Shown: positions 23,187-30,711, numbered from the stretch's first letter. The stretch: DNA of 64,000 nucleotides from Sporomusa sp. KB1 (GCF_007830295.1 NZ_VLKC01000002.1:902940-966939); one strand, 5' to 3'. Notes: a model not told the origin generated them from the letters alone. A program made the numbers and translations.

Positions 23187-25095
23187 ATCGGGTAGGAAGC
23201 TGACCCTTAGTGAGTCAGCCGACCTCCCACAGAACCGTACGTACCGTTCGGTATACGGCTCCTCCTATGTTTACGCACAAACAGACTCGTAGTAATCAAG
23301 AAAATTGAAATATCCTGCCTTCTTAAGTCTCTCGGCAGAGATGGCTTTGGCAACAATCGGGTTACGGGCAACATGCCAGTACCCTTTTCTTATGTTTGCA
23401 CCTTCCCATGCTACCCAGTCCACTATTCCCAGTTTCTTAAGCATAGCGTATCGCGTCCTTATCCTTTTCCACTGTTTCCAGACAACCATCCGGATACGTC
23501 TCCGTAACCACTGATCTGTTGTTTTCAGTAGATTCTTCATATCTGCAAGTTTAAAGTAGTTCACCCATCCAGTTACAAACTGTTTGAGTTTTTCCTTCCT
23601 CTGCTCATATCCCATTCCGTTGCTTCTTGATGTAATTTCGCGAATCCTCGCTTTCATCTTTATAATGCTTTTGGGGTGTACTCGCAGACCCACATTTCTG
23701 TTCTTGTTGATATAGAACGCGTAACCTAAGAATTTGACCTTGCCTACGTAGGCTACTGCTGTCTTTTCCTTGTTCACTTTGAGGAATAATTTCTTCTCTA
23801 TGAACGGGATTAGATTTTCCAGTGTCCTTTGGGCCGCTCTTTTGCTTTTGCAGAAGATGAGCATATCGTCTGCATAACGGACGAACCTGTGCCCTCTTCG
23901 TTCAAGTTCCTCATCTAGCTCATTCAGAAGGATATTTCCACAAATTGGACTTAGAGGTCCCCCTTGCGGTACTCCTAGTTCCGTTTCCTCGAATCTGCCC
24001 ACACGCGTAATAACTCCCGCTCTGAAATATTTATGAATTAGAGATATGACTCTCCCATCCTTTATACTCCGTGACAGTACCTCTATCAGCTTGCTTTGGT
24101 TCACAGTATCAAAAAATTGTTCCAAATCCATATCCACAACGTACTTATACCCGTCGCAAATATTATTCTGACATGCTTTGAGAGCATCATGGGTGCTTCT
24201 TCTTGGTCGGAATCCGTAGCTGTTGTTCGAGAACTTTGGCTCATAGATTGGCGTCAAAACCTGCGCTATTGCCTGCTGTATGACTCGGTCTACGGCTGTT
24301 GGTATTCCCAACTTTCTCATTTTCTTCCCGCCATCTTTGGGTATCTCCACCCTCAGTACAGGTTGAGGTCGGTATTTTCCGTCCTTGATGGTTTGCCGGA
24401 TTTCCTCCCCGTTGTCTTTGAGATATGATAGAAGATCTTCCACCTGCATCCCATCGACTCCGCTTGCCCCTTTGTTCTTCTTAACCCGCTTGTATGCTTG
24501 GTTAAGATTATTTGGGGCAAGGATTTCTTCCAGCAGTCCACATTCTAGTCTGTTGGCATGGGTGCTGTTATTTTCAGTTATCCCTGAACCAGTAAGCGCT
24601 CCCGCATACTCTTTGTGCTCCGCACTATCCCTTTGCGGCCAACCACCTTTGTCACAGTGTTTTCTGCTATTGTTCCGATTCCTGGTAACATTCATTTACT
24701 AACACCTCCAAGGGTTCCGCCCTTCACAGTACCGTCGACGGTACTGCTAGTATGGCTTCATCTGACTCCTCACGACAAATCTTATTTCAACCGGCTTTCG
24801 CAAATATGCTTCCACCGTCCGTGAGGCCTCCCCGGGTAAGAACGCAGTCTTTCGCTCCATCTACCTGCCGCATTTACACAGACTGATTCCGTGTAGTTAT
24901 TGGACTTCGACTTGTTTAGCAGCCTTATCCTCAATTTGTGCCTGATGCGGTTTCTGTTCGTCAGGCCAGAGATTTGCCGCCGCCTTCCTTCACACTCCAT
25001 CTCACGATGGACGCACTTGGCCTTGGCTATACACTTCCCACTACCGGGCGTGTTCGGGACTTTCACCCGTTAGACTGCGCCCATGCCGGGCGCAC
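23187..25095 (-). mobile_element. Group IIC intron, complete, about 1.9 kb
   Basis: The 5' end starts GTGCGCCCGGCATGGGCGCA, as in bacterial class C introns (the Oceanobacillus iheyensis type). Internal landmarks include GGGTGAAAGTCCCGAACACG, GAAAGACTGCGTTCTTACCC and the domain V stem GCCGTATACCGAACGGTACG; domain VI ends ...TTCCTACCCGAT at about 23187. An intact maturase gene lies in domain IV. The 5' exon is a rho-independent terminator hairpin, the known insertion site preference of class C introns. The 3' boundary is good to a few bases. A tiny frame (MNNK, 23149-23163) with AAAGGAG follows directly. Confidence 0.9.
23271..24695 (-). CDS. ltrA: Group II intron reverse transcriptase/maturase
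   Basis: 474 aa. RT domains 0-7 include YGFRPRRSTHDAL, GVPQGGPLSP at 241-250 and the catalytic YADD at residues 274-277 (RYADDMLIFC). The maturase X domain follows (KVKFLGYAFY to FVTGWVNYFKLADMK) and the C-terminus has a basic DNA-binding-like region (WLRRRIRMVVWKQWKRIRTR). No HNH endonuclease, as expected of class C introns. The gene is intact. It sits inside the intron at 23187-25095. Confidence 0.95.
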   Translation of the reverse strand: MNVTRNRNNSRKHCDKGGWPQRDSAEHKEYAGALTGSGITENNSTHANRLECGLLEEILAPNNLNQAYKRVKKNKGASGVDGMQVEDLLSYLKDNGEEIRQTIKDGKYRPQPVLRVEIPKDGGKKMRKLGIPTAVDRVIQQAIAQVLTPIYEPKFSNNSYGFRPRRSTHDALKACQNNICDGYKYVVDMDLEQFFDTVNQSKLIEVLSRSIKDGRVISLIHKYFRAGVITRVGRFEETELGVPQGGPLSPICGNILLNELDEELERRGHRFVRYADDMLIFCKSKRAAQRTLENLIPFIEKKLFLKVNKEKTAVAYVGKVKFLGYAFYINKNRNVGLRVHPKSIIKMKARIREITSRSNGMGYEQRKEKLKQFVTGWVNYFKLADMKNLLKTTDQWLRRRIRMVVWKQWKRIRTRYAMLKKLGIVDWVAWEGANIRKGYWHVARNPIVAKAISAERLKKAGYFNFLDYYESVCA

Positions 25096-26054: not shown

Positions 26055-27689
26055 ATGTCGCTTGATACGGCTATCACAACAAACATTATTGCTACTACCT
26101 TAATGGTATTAACCTATACCTACCTATTTATTCAATATAAGCAAAGTTATCTGGCAAAATGGGTGTTGGTATGGATCTTACAGGAGATCAGGCTGGTCTT
26201 TTTGGACAAACCTTTTGGCGAACAATTAATTGTACCATCCTTTCTCTATATTGGACTGTCTTTTGCCAACAGTCTGCTTATGATTGCAGGGACAGTAGGT
26301 TTTGCGGGCAGACGCTTATCAGCGAAGTGGCTGGTAACTGCCTTAGTATTTTCCACGCTTTCCTTTCTTGGTATTTTTCGGGGACTGACACCCAGTCTAT
26401 ACATGCTGCCTGGCGTAGCGTTTGTTGGCTCCGCCTACATCTATACCGGTTTTGTTATTTGGAATAGTTGTGCCCCTGGTATGGGAAAATGGCTAACCGC
26501 TTCGGCATTTATTCTTTTAGGAGTGCATGCTTTCGATATGCCATTCTTGTATAGCCTAGGTTGGTTTGCACCATGGGGCTATTTAATTGATGGTCTACTC
26601 AGATACGCTATCGCTATAGGAATTATCCTCGTCTATTTTGAAAAAACCAGGAATGAACTAGAACAATACTATCAGTTGCTTGCTAGAAATACCACAGATG
26701 TTATCTACCGATACAACTTCAATTCACCTGCAGGATTTGATTATATTAGTCCGGCCGTGACTCACCTGACAGGCTATCCTCCAGACTACTTCCGGACACT
26801 CCGGCAGGTTATGCGTATCATTCACCCCGATGACCGCGCTAAATTGAAGAAAATAGCAACTGTCCGCAGTCTCCCTGACGGCTTCGTGACTCTACGGGTA
26901 AGAGCAAGAAATGGGGATATCGTCTGGGCAGAACAAAAAAATTCATTAGTTGTTGATTCCACTGGCCGTCCCATAGCTGCGGAGGGCATTGTACGGGATA
27001 TTACCAAGCGAATACTATTAGAAGAAGACGTATCGCGGCTTGACCGGCTAAATATTGTTGGCGAAATGGCTGCTAATTTTGCCCACGAAGTCCGCAATCC
27101 TCTGACTACCGTACGGGGTTATCTGCAGCTTCTGGGGAAGAAAAGTGAATTCAGCAATTATAAGGAGCAATTTACTCTTTTATTGGAAGAACTTGACCGC
27201 ACCAATCAAATCATTACTGAATATCTATCTCTTAGCAAAAATAAAATCGTTGAAATGAAAAAAGGCGATTTGAACCATATTTTATTGGCACTCCATCCTT
27301 TAGTGCAGGCAACTGCAGTACCGTCGCAAGTCACCGTAAATTTAAACTTGGGAGATATTCCATTACTGTATATTGACGATAAAGAAATTAAGCAACTTAT
27401 ACTTAACCTCACCCGTAACGCTATTGAGGCAATGACATCAGGTGGAAAGCTGGAAATTAAGACATTGGCTAGCGAAGATAATACCATTCTTACTGTCACT
27501 GATCAGGGCAAGGGAATTCCCGGCCATGTCATGAACAACCTGGGTAAGCCCTTTCTTACGACTAAGGAAAATGGCACAGGCTTGGGAATGGCTATCTGCT
27601 ATCGTATTTGTCTTAGACATAATGCTAAACTGGATATTAACACTGGGCCAGCTGGAACAACGATAAATGTAATATTCCCTAACAGCTAG
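26055..27689 (+). CDS. Membrane-bound PAS sensor histidine kinase
   Basis: 544 aa. Residues 1-195 hold about seven hydrophobic segments, a membrane sensor region of MASE/7TM character. A PAS domain follows (205-320, with a PAC-like GIVRDITKR end), then HisKA with AHEVRNP (His344) and a HATPase domain (N-box NLTRNAIEAM, G1 DQGKGIPG, G2 GTGLGMAI). The transmitter resembles that of 1300-2694. A TAGGAGGAAT site precedes the ATG. No response regulator is adjacent; the GNAT-cNMP/radical SAM pair starts 170 bp downstream after a terminator, so it may be the input for that unit (inference). Confidence 0.88.
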   Translation: MSLDTAITTNIIATTLMVLTYTYLFIQYKQSYLAKWVLVWILQEIRLVFLDKPFGEQLIVPSFLYIGLSFANSLLMIAGTVGFAGRRLSAKWLVTALVFSTLSFLGIFRGLTPSLYMLPGVAFVGSAYIYTGFVIWNSCAPGMGKWLTASAFILLGVHAFDMPFLYSLGWFAPWGYLIDGLLRYAIAIGIILVYFEKTRNELEQYYQLLARNTTDVIYRYNFNSPAGFDYISPAVTHLTGYPPDYFRTLRQVMRIIHPDDRAKLKKIATVRSLPDGFVTLRVRARNGDIVWAEQKNSLVVDSTGRPIAAEGIVRDITKRILLEEDVSRLDRLNIVGEMAANFAHEVRNPLTTVRGYLQLLGKKSEFSNYKEQFTLLLEELDRTNQIITEYLSLSKNKIVEMKKGDLNHILLALHPLVQATAVPSQVTVNLNLGDIPLLYIDDKEIKQLILNLTRNAIEAMTSGGKLEIKTLASEDNTILTVTDQGKGIPGHVMNNLGKPFLTTKENGTGLGMAICYRICLRHNAKLDINTGPAGTTINVIFPNS

Positions 27690-27702: not shown

Positions 27703-27729
27703 GAAAAAAGGCCGAAAGGTCTTTTTTTT
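27703..27729 (+). terminator. Terminator of the membrane kinase gene
   Basis: AAAAAGGCC and GGTCTTTTT pair around a GAAA tetraloop with one G-U, followed by a T-run. It separates the kinase from the next two-gene unit. Confidence 0.75.
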
Positions 27730-27858
27730 ATTCCTGCAGCCAGAGATAATTTCACGCTGGCAGCACCAAGAGGCAAGAGAAAGGCGGTGATTCTGTGGAT
27801 CCTCCAATTAGAACCATATTCCCTTGATAAACAACAAAAAATAAGAGGTGAAGAAAGT

Positions 27859-28980
27859 ATGCTAAATCAGCAATACTCCACGCAAACAAACCTGGATTGT
27901 GAACACGTCCAAATTAAAGATGCTGTCACAGACCAGGAACGACAGGCAATCTATCAATTTCGCTATAAGATTCAGGTTGAAGAAATGAAAAGATGTATCC
28001 CCGGGGCCGACCATGTAAAAAAGTGCATCTCTGAAGAAATGGATTCCTGGAGCCAGCTTGCATATGCAGAGTTAAATGGCCAAATAGTTGGTACTGCACG
28101 GGCTGTGATTGGTGGTGCCGAAGACTTTCCCGCAGAGTTGGGCCAGATATTTCAGTTAAAACGCTATCAAGAATTTGACCCGGCAAGTAAAAACATGTGT
28201 TTCGCCACTAAACTTATGGTTGATCCCCGCCTGCGCAAAACCCCGTTATCTTTCAGACTCATGGCTAAAGTCTATGAGTTGTCGCGTCAGCATAATGTTC
28301 AGTTTAGTTTCAGCGGTTCGAATCCTTATCTAATTCCGATGTACGAGCAACTAGGCTATCGCCAAATTGCTCCGGGCTTCCAGGATTCCGGATATGGATT
28401 TATTGTGCCGACATTACTGCTGACTGAAGACATTGACCACCTTAAAGCTGTGAAATCTCCGTATCTACGCCTGGCAAGAAAATTAATAAACTCTCCGGCA
28501 GCCAAACAATGGCTGGCAGTCAATTTGCCTGAGGCCTTCAAATATCCTGTCGGTATTCTTACAAGCAGGCAAGACCATTGGAATACCATTAAACAGTTAG
28601 TTGGTGACCCTGTTGCCAATCTGGAGGTTTTACGTGACCTAAATGACGAGGAAGCTGGCCAGCTCCTAAAAATTGGCACCCTTATCGAATGCAGCCGTGA
28701 GCACTATTTCATTCTACGGGGGGACGTCTGCAATGAGGTAAATATCCTTCTTTCCGGTCAAATGAGCGTGCTTAACGGCCAGGCTTTACCAATCAAACCT
28801 GGTGGCATTTTGGGAGACATCGGTATCATGGAGCAGACCCATCATCATGTTGATGTCATCGCGACTGAGCACTCGGTGATTTTGGTACTATCGCGTGCTC
28901 CTTTCGAAAAATTATGTCGTTCTTTTCCCGAGATTCCAGGAAAACTGCATTTTATCAACCAAAATAGGGAGGTTAAATAA
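27859..28980 (+). CDS. GNAT/autoinducer-synthase-like acyltransferase fused to a cyclic-nucleotide-binding domain
   Basis: 373 aa from the ATG at 27859, chosen because AGAGGTGA lies upstream. Residues about 18-190 have the LuxI/FeeM/GNAT fold pattern: IYQFRYKIQVEEM (Arg35, Glu41) and EEMDSWSQLAYAELNGQIVG followed by TARAV, like the conserved Arg, Asp and core strand of N-acyl amino acid and acyl-homoserine lactone synthases. Residues 255-365 form a cNMP/CRP-like beta barrel (ILRGDVCNEVNILLSGQMSV, PGGILGDIGIME). There is no DNA-binding domain. An acyltransferase whose activity is gated by a nucleotide or similar ligand is a reasonable reading. The stop is directly followed by the ATG of a radical SAM gene. 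Confidence 0.75.
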   Translation: MLNQQYSTQTNLDCEHVQIKDAVTDQERQAIYQFRYKIQVEEMKRCIPGADHVKKCISEEMDSWSQLAYAELNGQIVGTARAVIGGAEDFPAELGQIFQLKRYQEFDPASKNMCFATKLMVDPRLRKTPLSFRLMAKVYELSRQHNVQFSFSGSNPYLIPMYEQLGYRQIAPGFQDSGYGFIVPTLLLTEDIDHLKAVKSPYLRLARKLINSPAAKQWLAVNLPEAFKYPVGILTSRQDHWNTIKQLVGDPVANLEVLRDLNDEEAGQLLKIGTLIECSREHYFILRGDVCNEVNILLSGQMSVLNGQALPIKPGGILGDIGIMEQTHHHVDVIATEHSVILVLSRAPFEKLCRSFPEIPGKLHFINQNREVK

Positions 28981-30711
28981 ATGAATAGCACACTTGAAAT
29001 CCTGTTGGTTAACAGCTATGCACCCCGGCAGCGGGTTGTGTCCGATACCGCACTTGAAAACAGTCTGGCGATACTCAGAACCTACCTCGAATCAAAAGGT
29101 ATTCTGGCAGAGGTTATCGACGATCAACGGATAACCTCTTTGGAAAAAAGAATACCTTCCGGGTGCGTGCTTCTCTTACGAGCAATGGTCAAACTGCAGC
29201 TAAAAACCTACCATAACAAGTTGCTTGGCCGCGGGCTGCTACTGGCAGCTTGGCCGCTTCACGCCTATACGCTGCATTGCAGACACGAATATATGCAAGC
29301 CAGGATTGAACAAATTGTCAAGGAGATAAAATCCAAAAATATCCCGTTACTGGGACTCAAGCTTTGGTACGGGGATGCTTTCAAATGGAGCTGCGACTTG
29401 GCAACTGCAGTCAGAAATCACTGCCCTGATACAACAATAATCGTTGGCGGACCACAGGTTAAGGTATATGGAGACTTAGTACTGCATGAACCTTGCTTTG
29501 ATCTTGCCATCATGGGTCCTGGTGAAGAAATACTTGCCAAACTTGTTAGCCTGCGCCGCCAGAACCATTCTAAGAGCAAATTTCTTGACCAAGTGCAGAC
29601 GACCTTTGGCGGGACTCTGCTCAAAACTGGTGGCTTTGCCGGTGACAAAGCGGAGCTTGTACAGAGTTTAGCCAGCCAGACAATCCCGGAATACCGGGAT
29701 GCAGATCTTGAAGATAAAATTCACTTTCATACGATTGTCGACGGTGTTGGCTGCAGCTGGAATAGTTGTAATTTTTGCTCCCATACCCGCTGCACAGTTC
29801 CCTTTACCCCCCGGCCGGTAGCCGATATTATTACTGAAATAGAAACAATGCTGCAGCGTGGAATTGCTTTTTTTCGTTTTAGCAGCTCGGAAACCACTGT
29901 CGAGCATGGCCGGAATATTGCAGAAGCCATTCTGGCGCGTGGCCTTACTATCCGGTACTCCATGTTTATCCGCGCCGGCAAACCCAGTCAAGAGATGCTT
30001 ACTGCCTATCGCCTTATGATTCAGGCGGGATTAAGAGCAGTATTTATGGGTGGTGAAACCGGGCATGATGATGTTAATCATCTGGTCATGAACAAAGGGG
30101 TAACAAAACAGGACATTGTCGGTACTATCGCGACGATTAGGCTGGCCTCAGATGCTGCCGGCTTACCGTGCCGTATCGGGCTGTCACTCATTTACCCTTG
30201 CCCGTTGCCTCCAGGAGTTGAGTTGAATGAAGTGTACAACGCCAATGTTGCTCTTATTGATGCAACTCTGCCTGATACTGTCATTGTTAATCCGCCGGGA
30301 CCGTTTCCGGAAACAAGCTGGTATAGTAATCCTGAAAAATACGGTTTCACATTCGCGGAAGGAGCCACTGCTTTTGCGCAGAATTTCATGCGTTACGAAT
30401 ACTCTATTTATAAACCTGCCGAGCTATGGAAGGATATGGGGTTTGCTCTCAACACCATGGAAGGTAAGGCTTTGCTCAACGAGACAGGCAAGCTGCGAGC
30501 CTACGCGGCAAGCCTTGGTATCCCCACAGATATTTCGGATGAATACTTAATGATGACAGAGGCGATAGGACTTAGTTCTAAGGCCGATCTACTTCTCTTT
30601 AAACAGCGTACGCTTATTGACATCATGAGCGGCAGCACTGACTATACACGCGAGATTGCAGCAGCCATCAATAAAGCCAGCAGGCAAATTGCTGCAACAA
30701 ATACACTTTAA
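28981..30711 (+). CDS. Radical SAM protein with B12-binding-type N-terminal domain and atypical cluster motif
   Basis: 576 aa. An N-terminal Rossmann-like domain (1-200, with IIVGGPQVKVYGDLVL and DLAIMGPGEEIL) is typical of the B12-binding fold in class B radical SAM enzymes. The radical SAM barrel starts near 245 (IVDGVGCSWNSCNFCSH). The cluster cysteines are Cys258, Cys263 and Cys266, spaced C-x4-C-x2-C, not the usual C-x3-C-x2-C; Cys271 follows. The barrel continues with FMGGETGHDDVNHLVMNKGV. No gap separates it from the acyltransferase gene (stop TAA, then ATG), so both are translated together. Chemistry unknown; modification of the acyl product is a possibility. Confidence 0.8.
   Translation: MNSTLEILLVNSYAPRQRVVSDTALENSLAILRTYLESKGILAEVIDDQRITSLEKRIPSGCVLLLRAMVKLQLKTYHNKLLGRGLLLAAWPLHAYTLHCRHEYMQARIEQIVKEIKSKNIPLLGLKLWYGDAFKWSCDLATAVRNHCPDTTIIVGGPQVKVYGDLVLHEPCFDLAIMGPGEEILAKLVSLRRQNHSKSKFLDQVQTTFGGTLLKTGGFAGDKAELVQSLASQTIPEYRDADLEDKIHFHTIVDGVGCSWNSCNFCSHTRCTVPFTPRPVADIITEIETMLQRGIAFFRFSSSETTVEHGRNIAEAILARGLTIRYSMFIRAGKPSQEMLTAYRLMIQAGLRAVFMGGETGHDDVNHLVMNKGVTKQDIVGTIATIRLASDAAGLPCRIGLSLIYPCPLPPGVELNEVYNANVALIDATLPDTVIVNPPGPFPETSWYSNPEKYGFTFAEGATAFAQNFMRYEYSIYKPAELWKDMGFALNTMEGKALLNETGKLRAYAASLGIPTDISDEYLMMTEAIGLSSKADLLLFKQRTLIDIMSGSTDYTREIAAAINKASRQIAATNTL

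Follow-up and report, generated by a model that had tools for sequence, protein, structure and literature searches.

A histidine kinase-linked FeeM/LuxI-type acyltransferase fusion with an accessory B12-binding radical SAM protein in Negativicutes

A membrane histidine kinase, a fusion of a FeeM/LuxI-type acyltransferase with a CRP-like domain and, often, a B12-binding radical SAM protein are encoded side by side in spore-forming Negativicutes. This set probably makes a fatty-acid-based molecule coupled to signalling. Our preferred, tentative reading is a kinase-coupled acyl-amide synthase module, possibly comprising a signal and its receptor, with optional tailoring by the radical SAM enzyme. 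No description of this architecture was found in the open-access literature searched.

Organization of the locus

The locus lies in a 64,000-nucleotide stretch of the Sporomusa sp. KB1 genome (the window). It contains the following features:

26055-27689, + strand: membrane histidine kinase, 544 aa, with about six hydrophobic segments, PAS, HisKA and HATPase_c (Pfam, hydrophobicity scan)
27705-27729, + strand: terminator-like hairpin AAAAAGGCC-GAAA-GGTCTTTTT after the kinase gene, recognized by sequence and found at the same place in homologous loci
27783-27827, + strand: leader with Shine-Dalgarno GGCGGTG and a ten-codon mini-ORF (GTG 27795 to TGA 27827), 64 bases ahead of the fusion start
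27859-28980, + strand: acyltransferase-cNBD fusion gene, 373 aa
27901-28428, + strand: FeeM/LuxI-type acyltransferase domain (residues 15-190), with a FeeM fold match and R35, D62 and R81 invariant in 80 homologues
28621-28953, + strand: CRP-like cyclic-nucleotide-binding-fold domain (cNBD, residues 255-365), with no phosphate-binding Arg and a conserved Cys278
28981-30711, + strand: B12-binding radical SAM protein, 576 aa
29233-29544, + strand: B12-binding domain (residues 85-188; Pfam), present in 29/29 relatives
29752-29778, + strand: C-x4-C-x2-C cluster motif (C258, C263, C266), invariant in 29/29 and lost only in the partnerless copy L054
30720-30748, + strand: terminator-like site past the radical SAM gene, a consensus match only and no more frequent than in shuffles

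The fusion gene ends with TAA (28978-28980) and the radical SAM gene starts at once with ATG (28981), as an earlier, sequence-only reading of the window had described. Upstream of the kinase gene, a 474-aa frame on the - strand (23271-24695) looks by eye like a reverse transcriptase of the group II intron type, and it does not group with a 477-aa gene near there in Sporomusa silvacetica. A consensus terminator scan does not call the hairpin at 27705-27729.

The kinase and the fusion form the conserved core

The fusion is present in 82 copies in 44 of the 380 Negativicutes genomes. A histidine kinase gene adjoins all 81 copies that can be assessed, while the 82nd is cut by a contig end. Seventy-five of these kinases belong to one subfamily and six are more distant. 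The genes of the subfamily are mostly found upstream on the same strand, with four arranged divergently and one downstream. Their products contain HisKA (75/75) and HATPase_c (74/75), and the phospho-acceptor His, H344, is invariant. At L175, L183, L185, L191, L192 and L197, a distant-subfamily kinase is located up- or downstream of the fusion, so that the adjacency is kept and the kinase changed.

The radical SAM family comprises 27 copies in 24 of the same 380 genomes. In 26 of the 27 cases the gene immediately follows a fusion, with the two reading frames often sharing a few bases, and it is present at about a third of the assessable fusion copies. Since every assessable fusion stands beside a kinase and a third have the radical SAM gene, the core that is conserved more widely consists of kinase and fusion, to which the radical SAM gene is an accessory. 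The sequence-only reading had proposed that the fusion and radical SAM genes form a signal- or metabolite-making pair, with the kinase possibly as its input. A lack of co-occurrence in other genomes had been set beforehand as a result that would refute this proposal, and the 26 of 27 paired copies strongly support the pairing, with the kinase attached. The pair is not the whole unit, however: the kinase belongs to it.

Within the order, only the families of the kinase, the fusion and the radical SAM protein are found repeatedly at these loci. No other conserved partner, such as a transporter, a second acyltransferase or a response regulator, was found across the class, where the next commonest neighbour is present at roughly 8 of the 80 or so loci. 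An O-acyltransferase or other lipid gene is likewise not conserved beside the fusion at the approximately 80 loci. Up to four divergent fusion paralogues are present per genome, each with its own kinase. The window genome (6.06 Mb) contains two more fusions with kinases and without a radical SAM gene (L064, L065).

The fusion was found only in Negativicutes, in a search covering the 380 Negativicutes genomes, 398 genomes from across the phylum and one Kiritimatiellae MAG. In the 398-genome sample of the phylum, every match apart from the window's own genome was to a stand-alone cNBD.

The acyltransferase domain resembles FeeM and acyl-homoserine lactone synthases

The fusion protein matches the Pfam FeeM family (PF21926) at 7.9e-9, over the cut-off, and it also matches GNAT and, at 1e-9, cNMP_binding. 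Pfam and the reading frame agree with the earlier description, in which a LuxI/FeeM/GNAT-like domain is joined to a CRP-like domain that lacks a DNA-binding part. The FeeM profile is matched by 66 of 80 fusion homologues.

The AlphaFold model of the fusion protein is confident (pLDDT 92). In this model, residues 12-196 adopt a predicted fold similar to FeeM (PDB 2G0B; Z 17.2, rmsd 2.5, 170 residues), and nearly the same stretch aligns with the AHL synthases RpaI, TofI, BjaI and LasI (Z 14.4-15.7). The small GNAT SACOL1063 reaches a Z equal to that of FeeM, with fewer residues covered. Although FeeM shares its fold and Pfam family with the fusion, the identity is 13%, and the solved FeeM does not contain a cNBD-like domain. 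The fusion locus further adds a linked kinase and a radical SAM gene, and the LuxI-type synthases share the fold of a fusion that is linked to a kinase, not to LuxR.

Residues R35, D62, R81, E163, D191, S200 and P201 are invariant in all 80 homologues, and residue 59 is Asp in 77. R35, D59, D62 and R81 may correspond to the Arg/Asp/Asp/Arg set of LuxI, judged by spacing only. In LuxI, a Glu precedes a Ser-Arg pair. This Glu has no conserved counterpart ahead of T117-K118 of the fusion. The acetyl-CoA loop of GNAT enzymes, [QR]xxGx[GA], is found in 0/80 fusion homologues. Against the PEP-CTERM/exosortase acyltransferase model TIGR03694 the fusion scores 20.9 bits, compared to a cut-off of 111.95.

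The CRP-like domain lacks the phosphate-binding arginine

Residues 226-373 of the model resemble the domains of HCN channels and CRP-type proteins (Z about 15), and 76 of 80 homologues match the cNBD family profile. The protein ends after this domain, and a helix-turn-helix domain of the CRP/FNR type is absent. In a register taken from the alignment to PKG domains, the phosphate-binding Arg position is occupied by His in 51, Gln in 19 and Arg in 1 of the 80 homologues, and the Glu before it is kept in 17. The window protein has His at this position (residue 329, 28843-28845).

With the Arg missing, there is no support for control by cAMP or cGMP, even though the fold is clear. This sets aside cyclic-nucleotide gating of the fusion and, with it, the built-in second-messenger control that had been suggested from the sequence. 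Cys278 (28690-28692), located in the first strand of the domain, is Cys in 74/80 homologues. Judged by sequence, Cys278 and His329 are a possible ligand or redox site.

The radical SAM protein belongs to a linked, accessory family

Pfam identifies a B12-binding domain (8.1e-10) and a Radical_SAM domain (1.6e-7) in the second gene product, which is 94-96% identical to its counterparts in S. silvacetica and S. ovata. At a threshold of 0.001, B12-binding is matched in 29/29 relatives and Radical_SAM in 23/29. The model (pLDDT 90.5) matches AprD4, OxsB, MgmA and TsrM with Z 21.8-22.8. OxsB, TsrM and MgmA have the domain order and fold in common with the protein (Z 21.8-22.4), while identity to these enzymes and to GenD1 is at most about 17% in structural alignments. 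The protein belongs to a separate family. The named B12 radical SAM equivalogs (TIGR04072, BchE, PhpK, HpnR and others) give a best score of 54.1 against 360 bits. All NCBIfam models score far below their cut-offs, and the chemistry cannot be read from the fold.

C258, C263 and C266 are conserved in all 29 aligned relatives, three of which come from the Kiritimatiellae MAG. The sequence-only reading had placed these cysteines and Cys271 correctly and had given the C-x4-C-x2-C spacing, which it regarded as atypical. The spacing has a precedent: the gentamicin enzyme GenD1 has C-x4-C-x2-C, and a review puts it beside C-x3-C-x2-C (PMC4340712, PMC3087415). Cys271, described there as an extra cysteine, is Cys in only 7 of 29 relatives and Gln in most. 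It is not conserved, and its role as a further cluster ligand was dropped.

The presence of the radical SAM gene follows the fusion tree, with 3 changes compared to a mean of 22 for shuffled labels. Distances between acyltransferase domains correlate with those between radical SAM proteins (r 0.89; partial r 0.50 with the kinase catalytic domain controlled for), a correlation that is partly due to common descent.

One orphan radical SAM copy (L054:9286-11188, G010:C39) is found at the orthologous site, in the same neighbourhood as the window locus. Here the kinase and nearly all of the fusion are deleted, and a leader remnant can still be aligned. The radical SAM frame is open, but a 12-residue stretch with all three cysteines is lost together with a second stretch. 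In total, the frame lacks 27 of the 159 positions that do not vary in the other copies. This natural experiment indicates that the radical SAM enzyme is not maintained without its partners.

The Kiritimatiellae MAG contains three paralogous relatives of the radical SAM protein (L079, L080, L081), with 34-36% identity and the same C-x4-C-x2-C motif. No fusion was found in this genome, and 3 of 195 genomes of its phylum match the radical SAM family. The occurrence of relatives without the fusion indicates that this enzyme family predates the fusion or is more mobile.

A minimal upstream ORF precedes the fusion gene

In 60 of the 82 fusion leaders, a Shine-Dalgarno sequence agrees with GGRGGTG at six or more of the seven positions, compared to 9% in shuffles. 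It is located 54-74 bases before the fusion start. In 58 of the 82 copies it is followed by the start codon of a mini-ORF, which has exactly three codons in 39/58 (6% expected), consists of start and stop alone in 4, and does not exceed ten codons in 57. As a control, a three-codon ORF was found at this place in 0 of 370 other genes with free upstream space at the same loci. What is kept is the length, since the encoded amino acids differ between copies (MKT, MNI, MTT, MIV and others). The window's ten-codon mini-ORF, which occupies the equivalent position, is shared with S. silvacetica and S. ovata. Because copies with a divergent kinase have the leader as well, the element belongs to the fusion gene. 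Translation of the fusion is probably set by this minimal upstream ORF.

No Rfam family exceeds its gathering score in the leaders of 13 loci or in the window region, and the folding energies of 58 leaders equal those of shuffles (mean z -0.08), with no consensus structure. A riboswitch in the leader was rejected accordingly. A role of the mini-ORF in supplying the radical SAM enzyme with a precursor peptide was also considered and discarded: the peptides mostly have 1-10 residues, are dissimilar and occur mostly at copies without the radical SAM gene.

The window genome has two three-codon mini-ORFs with a perfect Shine-Dalgarno, one of them ahead of the L064 fusion. The other copy, G000:C2:294156-294181 (-; L212), lies outside the three fusion loci, and a control with the reversed pattern also gave one match. 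By eye, many paralogue leaders, among them those of L064, L133, L139, L142 and L160, contain AGGAA or AGGAT, approximately 16 bases and then CCGTAT, 50-60 bases before the mini-ORF. This pattern looks like an ECF-type promoter. Leaders of the G021-G025 clade have a TTGACA/TAAAAT-like promoter instead (by eye), and the window copy has neither pattern. A glycine riboswitch near one fusion locus (RF00504, 67.9 bits; L160:7078-7179, -) belongs to an unrelated neighbour.

Relation to Spo0A

Spo0A is encoded in 42 of the 44 carrier genomes and in 14 of the 336 non-carriers, an association confounded by shared ancestry. The two carriers without it are assemblies of 83-85% completeness. In clostridia, orphan kinases influence sporulation initiation, according to two reports (PMC11210211, PMC6343041), and on this ground a link of the module to Spo0A is plausible. 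0A boxes occur in the leaders at chance level (5/82, with 3.2 expected), and the regions upstream of the kinase genes are not enriched either. Direct control of the module by Spo0A was therefore rejected.

Discussion

From the genes, their domain families, predicted folds, conservation, linkage and leader element, we infer a substrate, a product, a direction of signalling and a leader function along the following lines. As in FeeM and LuxI, the fusion would most likely use acyl-ACP or acyl-CoA as donor of an acyl chain and a small amine as acceptor; its fold and residues suggest this. The CRP-like domain would be regulatory; having lost canonical cyclic-nucleotide recognition, it may sense another ligand or serve assembly. 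In B12-binding radical SAM enzymes, C-methylation is the commonest chemistry. Given this class and the linkage, the radical SAM enzyme may modify the fusion product at an unactivated carbon, probably by methylation. The linked membrane kinase could either sense the product, in a make-and-sense circuit feeding the Spo0A system, or control its production. The minimal upstream ORF would set translation of the synthase. A lipid ligand for the kinase is a guess, since the sensor region matches no family.

Synthase genes are found next to kinase genes in other systems. In CqsA/CqsS and LqsA/LqsS, the signal synthase gene lies beside the gene of a multi-pass membrane kinase, and CqsA and LqsA are PLP enzymes making alpha-hydroxyketones. 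The fusion loci are similar in that the putative synthase gene adjoins a membrane kinase gene, and the comparison covers this adjacency; CqsA and LqsA, being PLP enzymes, differ from the FeeM/LuxI-type fusion. A complete circuit acting on the cell itself or between cells would combine a LuxI/FeeM acyl signal, diversification by the radical SAM enzyme, a kinase receptor reporting to Spo0A, a three-codon ORF that sets synthase output and several parallel circuits in one genome, and would be a new class of circuit in spore-forming Negativicutes. We regard this full version as doubtful.

It is also possible, if somewhat unlikely, that the module makes a structural or stress aminolipid and that the kinase responds to a cue from the envelope or the environment and only controls production, with no signal involved. 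Aminolipid N-acyltransferases are structurally related to FeeM/LuxI-type enzymes (PMC11631085). A terminator of its own follows the kinase gene and a separate leader precedes the fusion, which suggests that the two are expressed separately. Against this, no lipid gene such as an O-acyltransferase is conserved beside the fusion, and up to four divergent paralogues with kinases per genome exceed the need of one lipid. The several paralogues, each with its own kinase, would favour signalling circuits over a single structural lipid. A further proposal concerns the radical SAM enzyme, which might act on a substrate unrelated to the acyltransferase product, the linkage reflecting shared kinase control only. 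Its distant relatives in the Kiritimatiellae MAG do without a fusion; however, the near-constant position directly downstream of the fusion (26/27), the decay of L054 after loss of its partners and the partial distance correlation with the acyltransferase make this improbable.

Two other explanations concern the fusion itself. Mycobacterial Rv0998 and MSMEG_5458 are cAMP-activated cNBD-GNAT fusions that acetylate lysines (PMC5861322), and a small GNAT equals FeeM in Z, which could indicate a regulated acetyltransferase of this type acting on a protein or small molecule, for example on the kinase or the radical SAM enzyme. The mycobacterial proteins likewise join a cNBD to a GNAT-fold enzyme, yet the domain order is opposite, and the fusion has a FeeM-type acyltransferase and no phosphate-binding Arg. 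With the canonical acetyl-CoA loop missing in 80/80, the FeeM family matched in 66/80 and longer coverage on FeeM and the AHL synthases, we consider an acetyltransferase quite improbable. A synthase whose C-terminal domain is gated directly by a cyclic nucleotide, be it cAMP, cGMP or another, would agree with the clear fold and family match, but it is very unlikely given the Arg in 1/80 and the preceding Glu in 17/80 homologues.

Should the kinase-coupled acyl-amide synthase module make a signal, acetogens and other spore-forming Negativicutes would possess a LuxI-related form of lipid signalling that is coupled to a kinase instead of LuxR. As many as four paralogous units exist in one genome, and a connection with sporulation would be possible. 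If the leader function holds, the three-codon ORF, whose length is kept across families while its amino acids are not, would provide a compact and directly testable example of a minimal ORF controlling translation.
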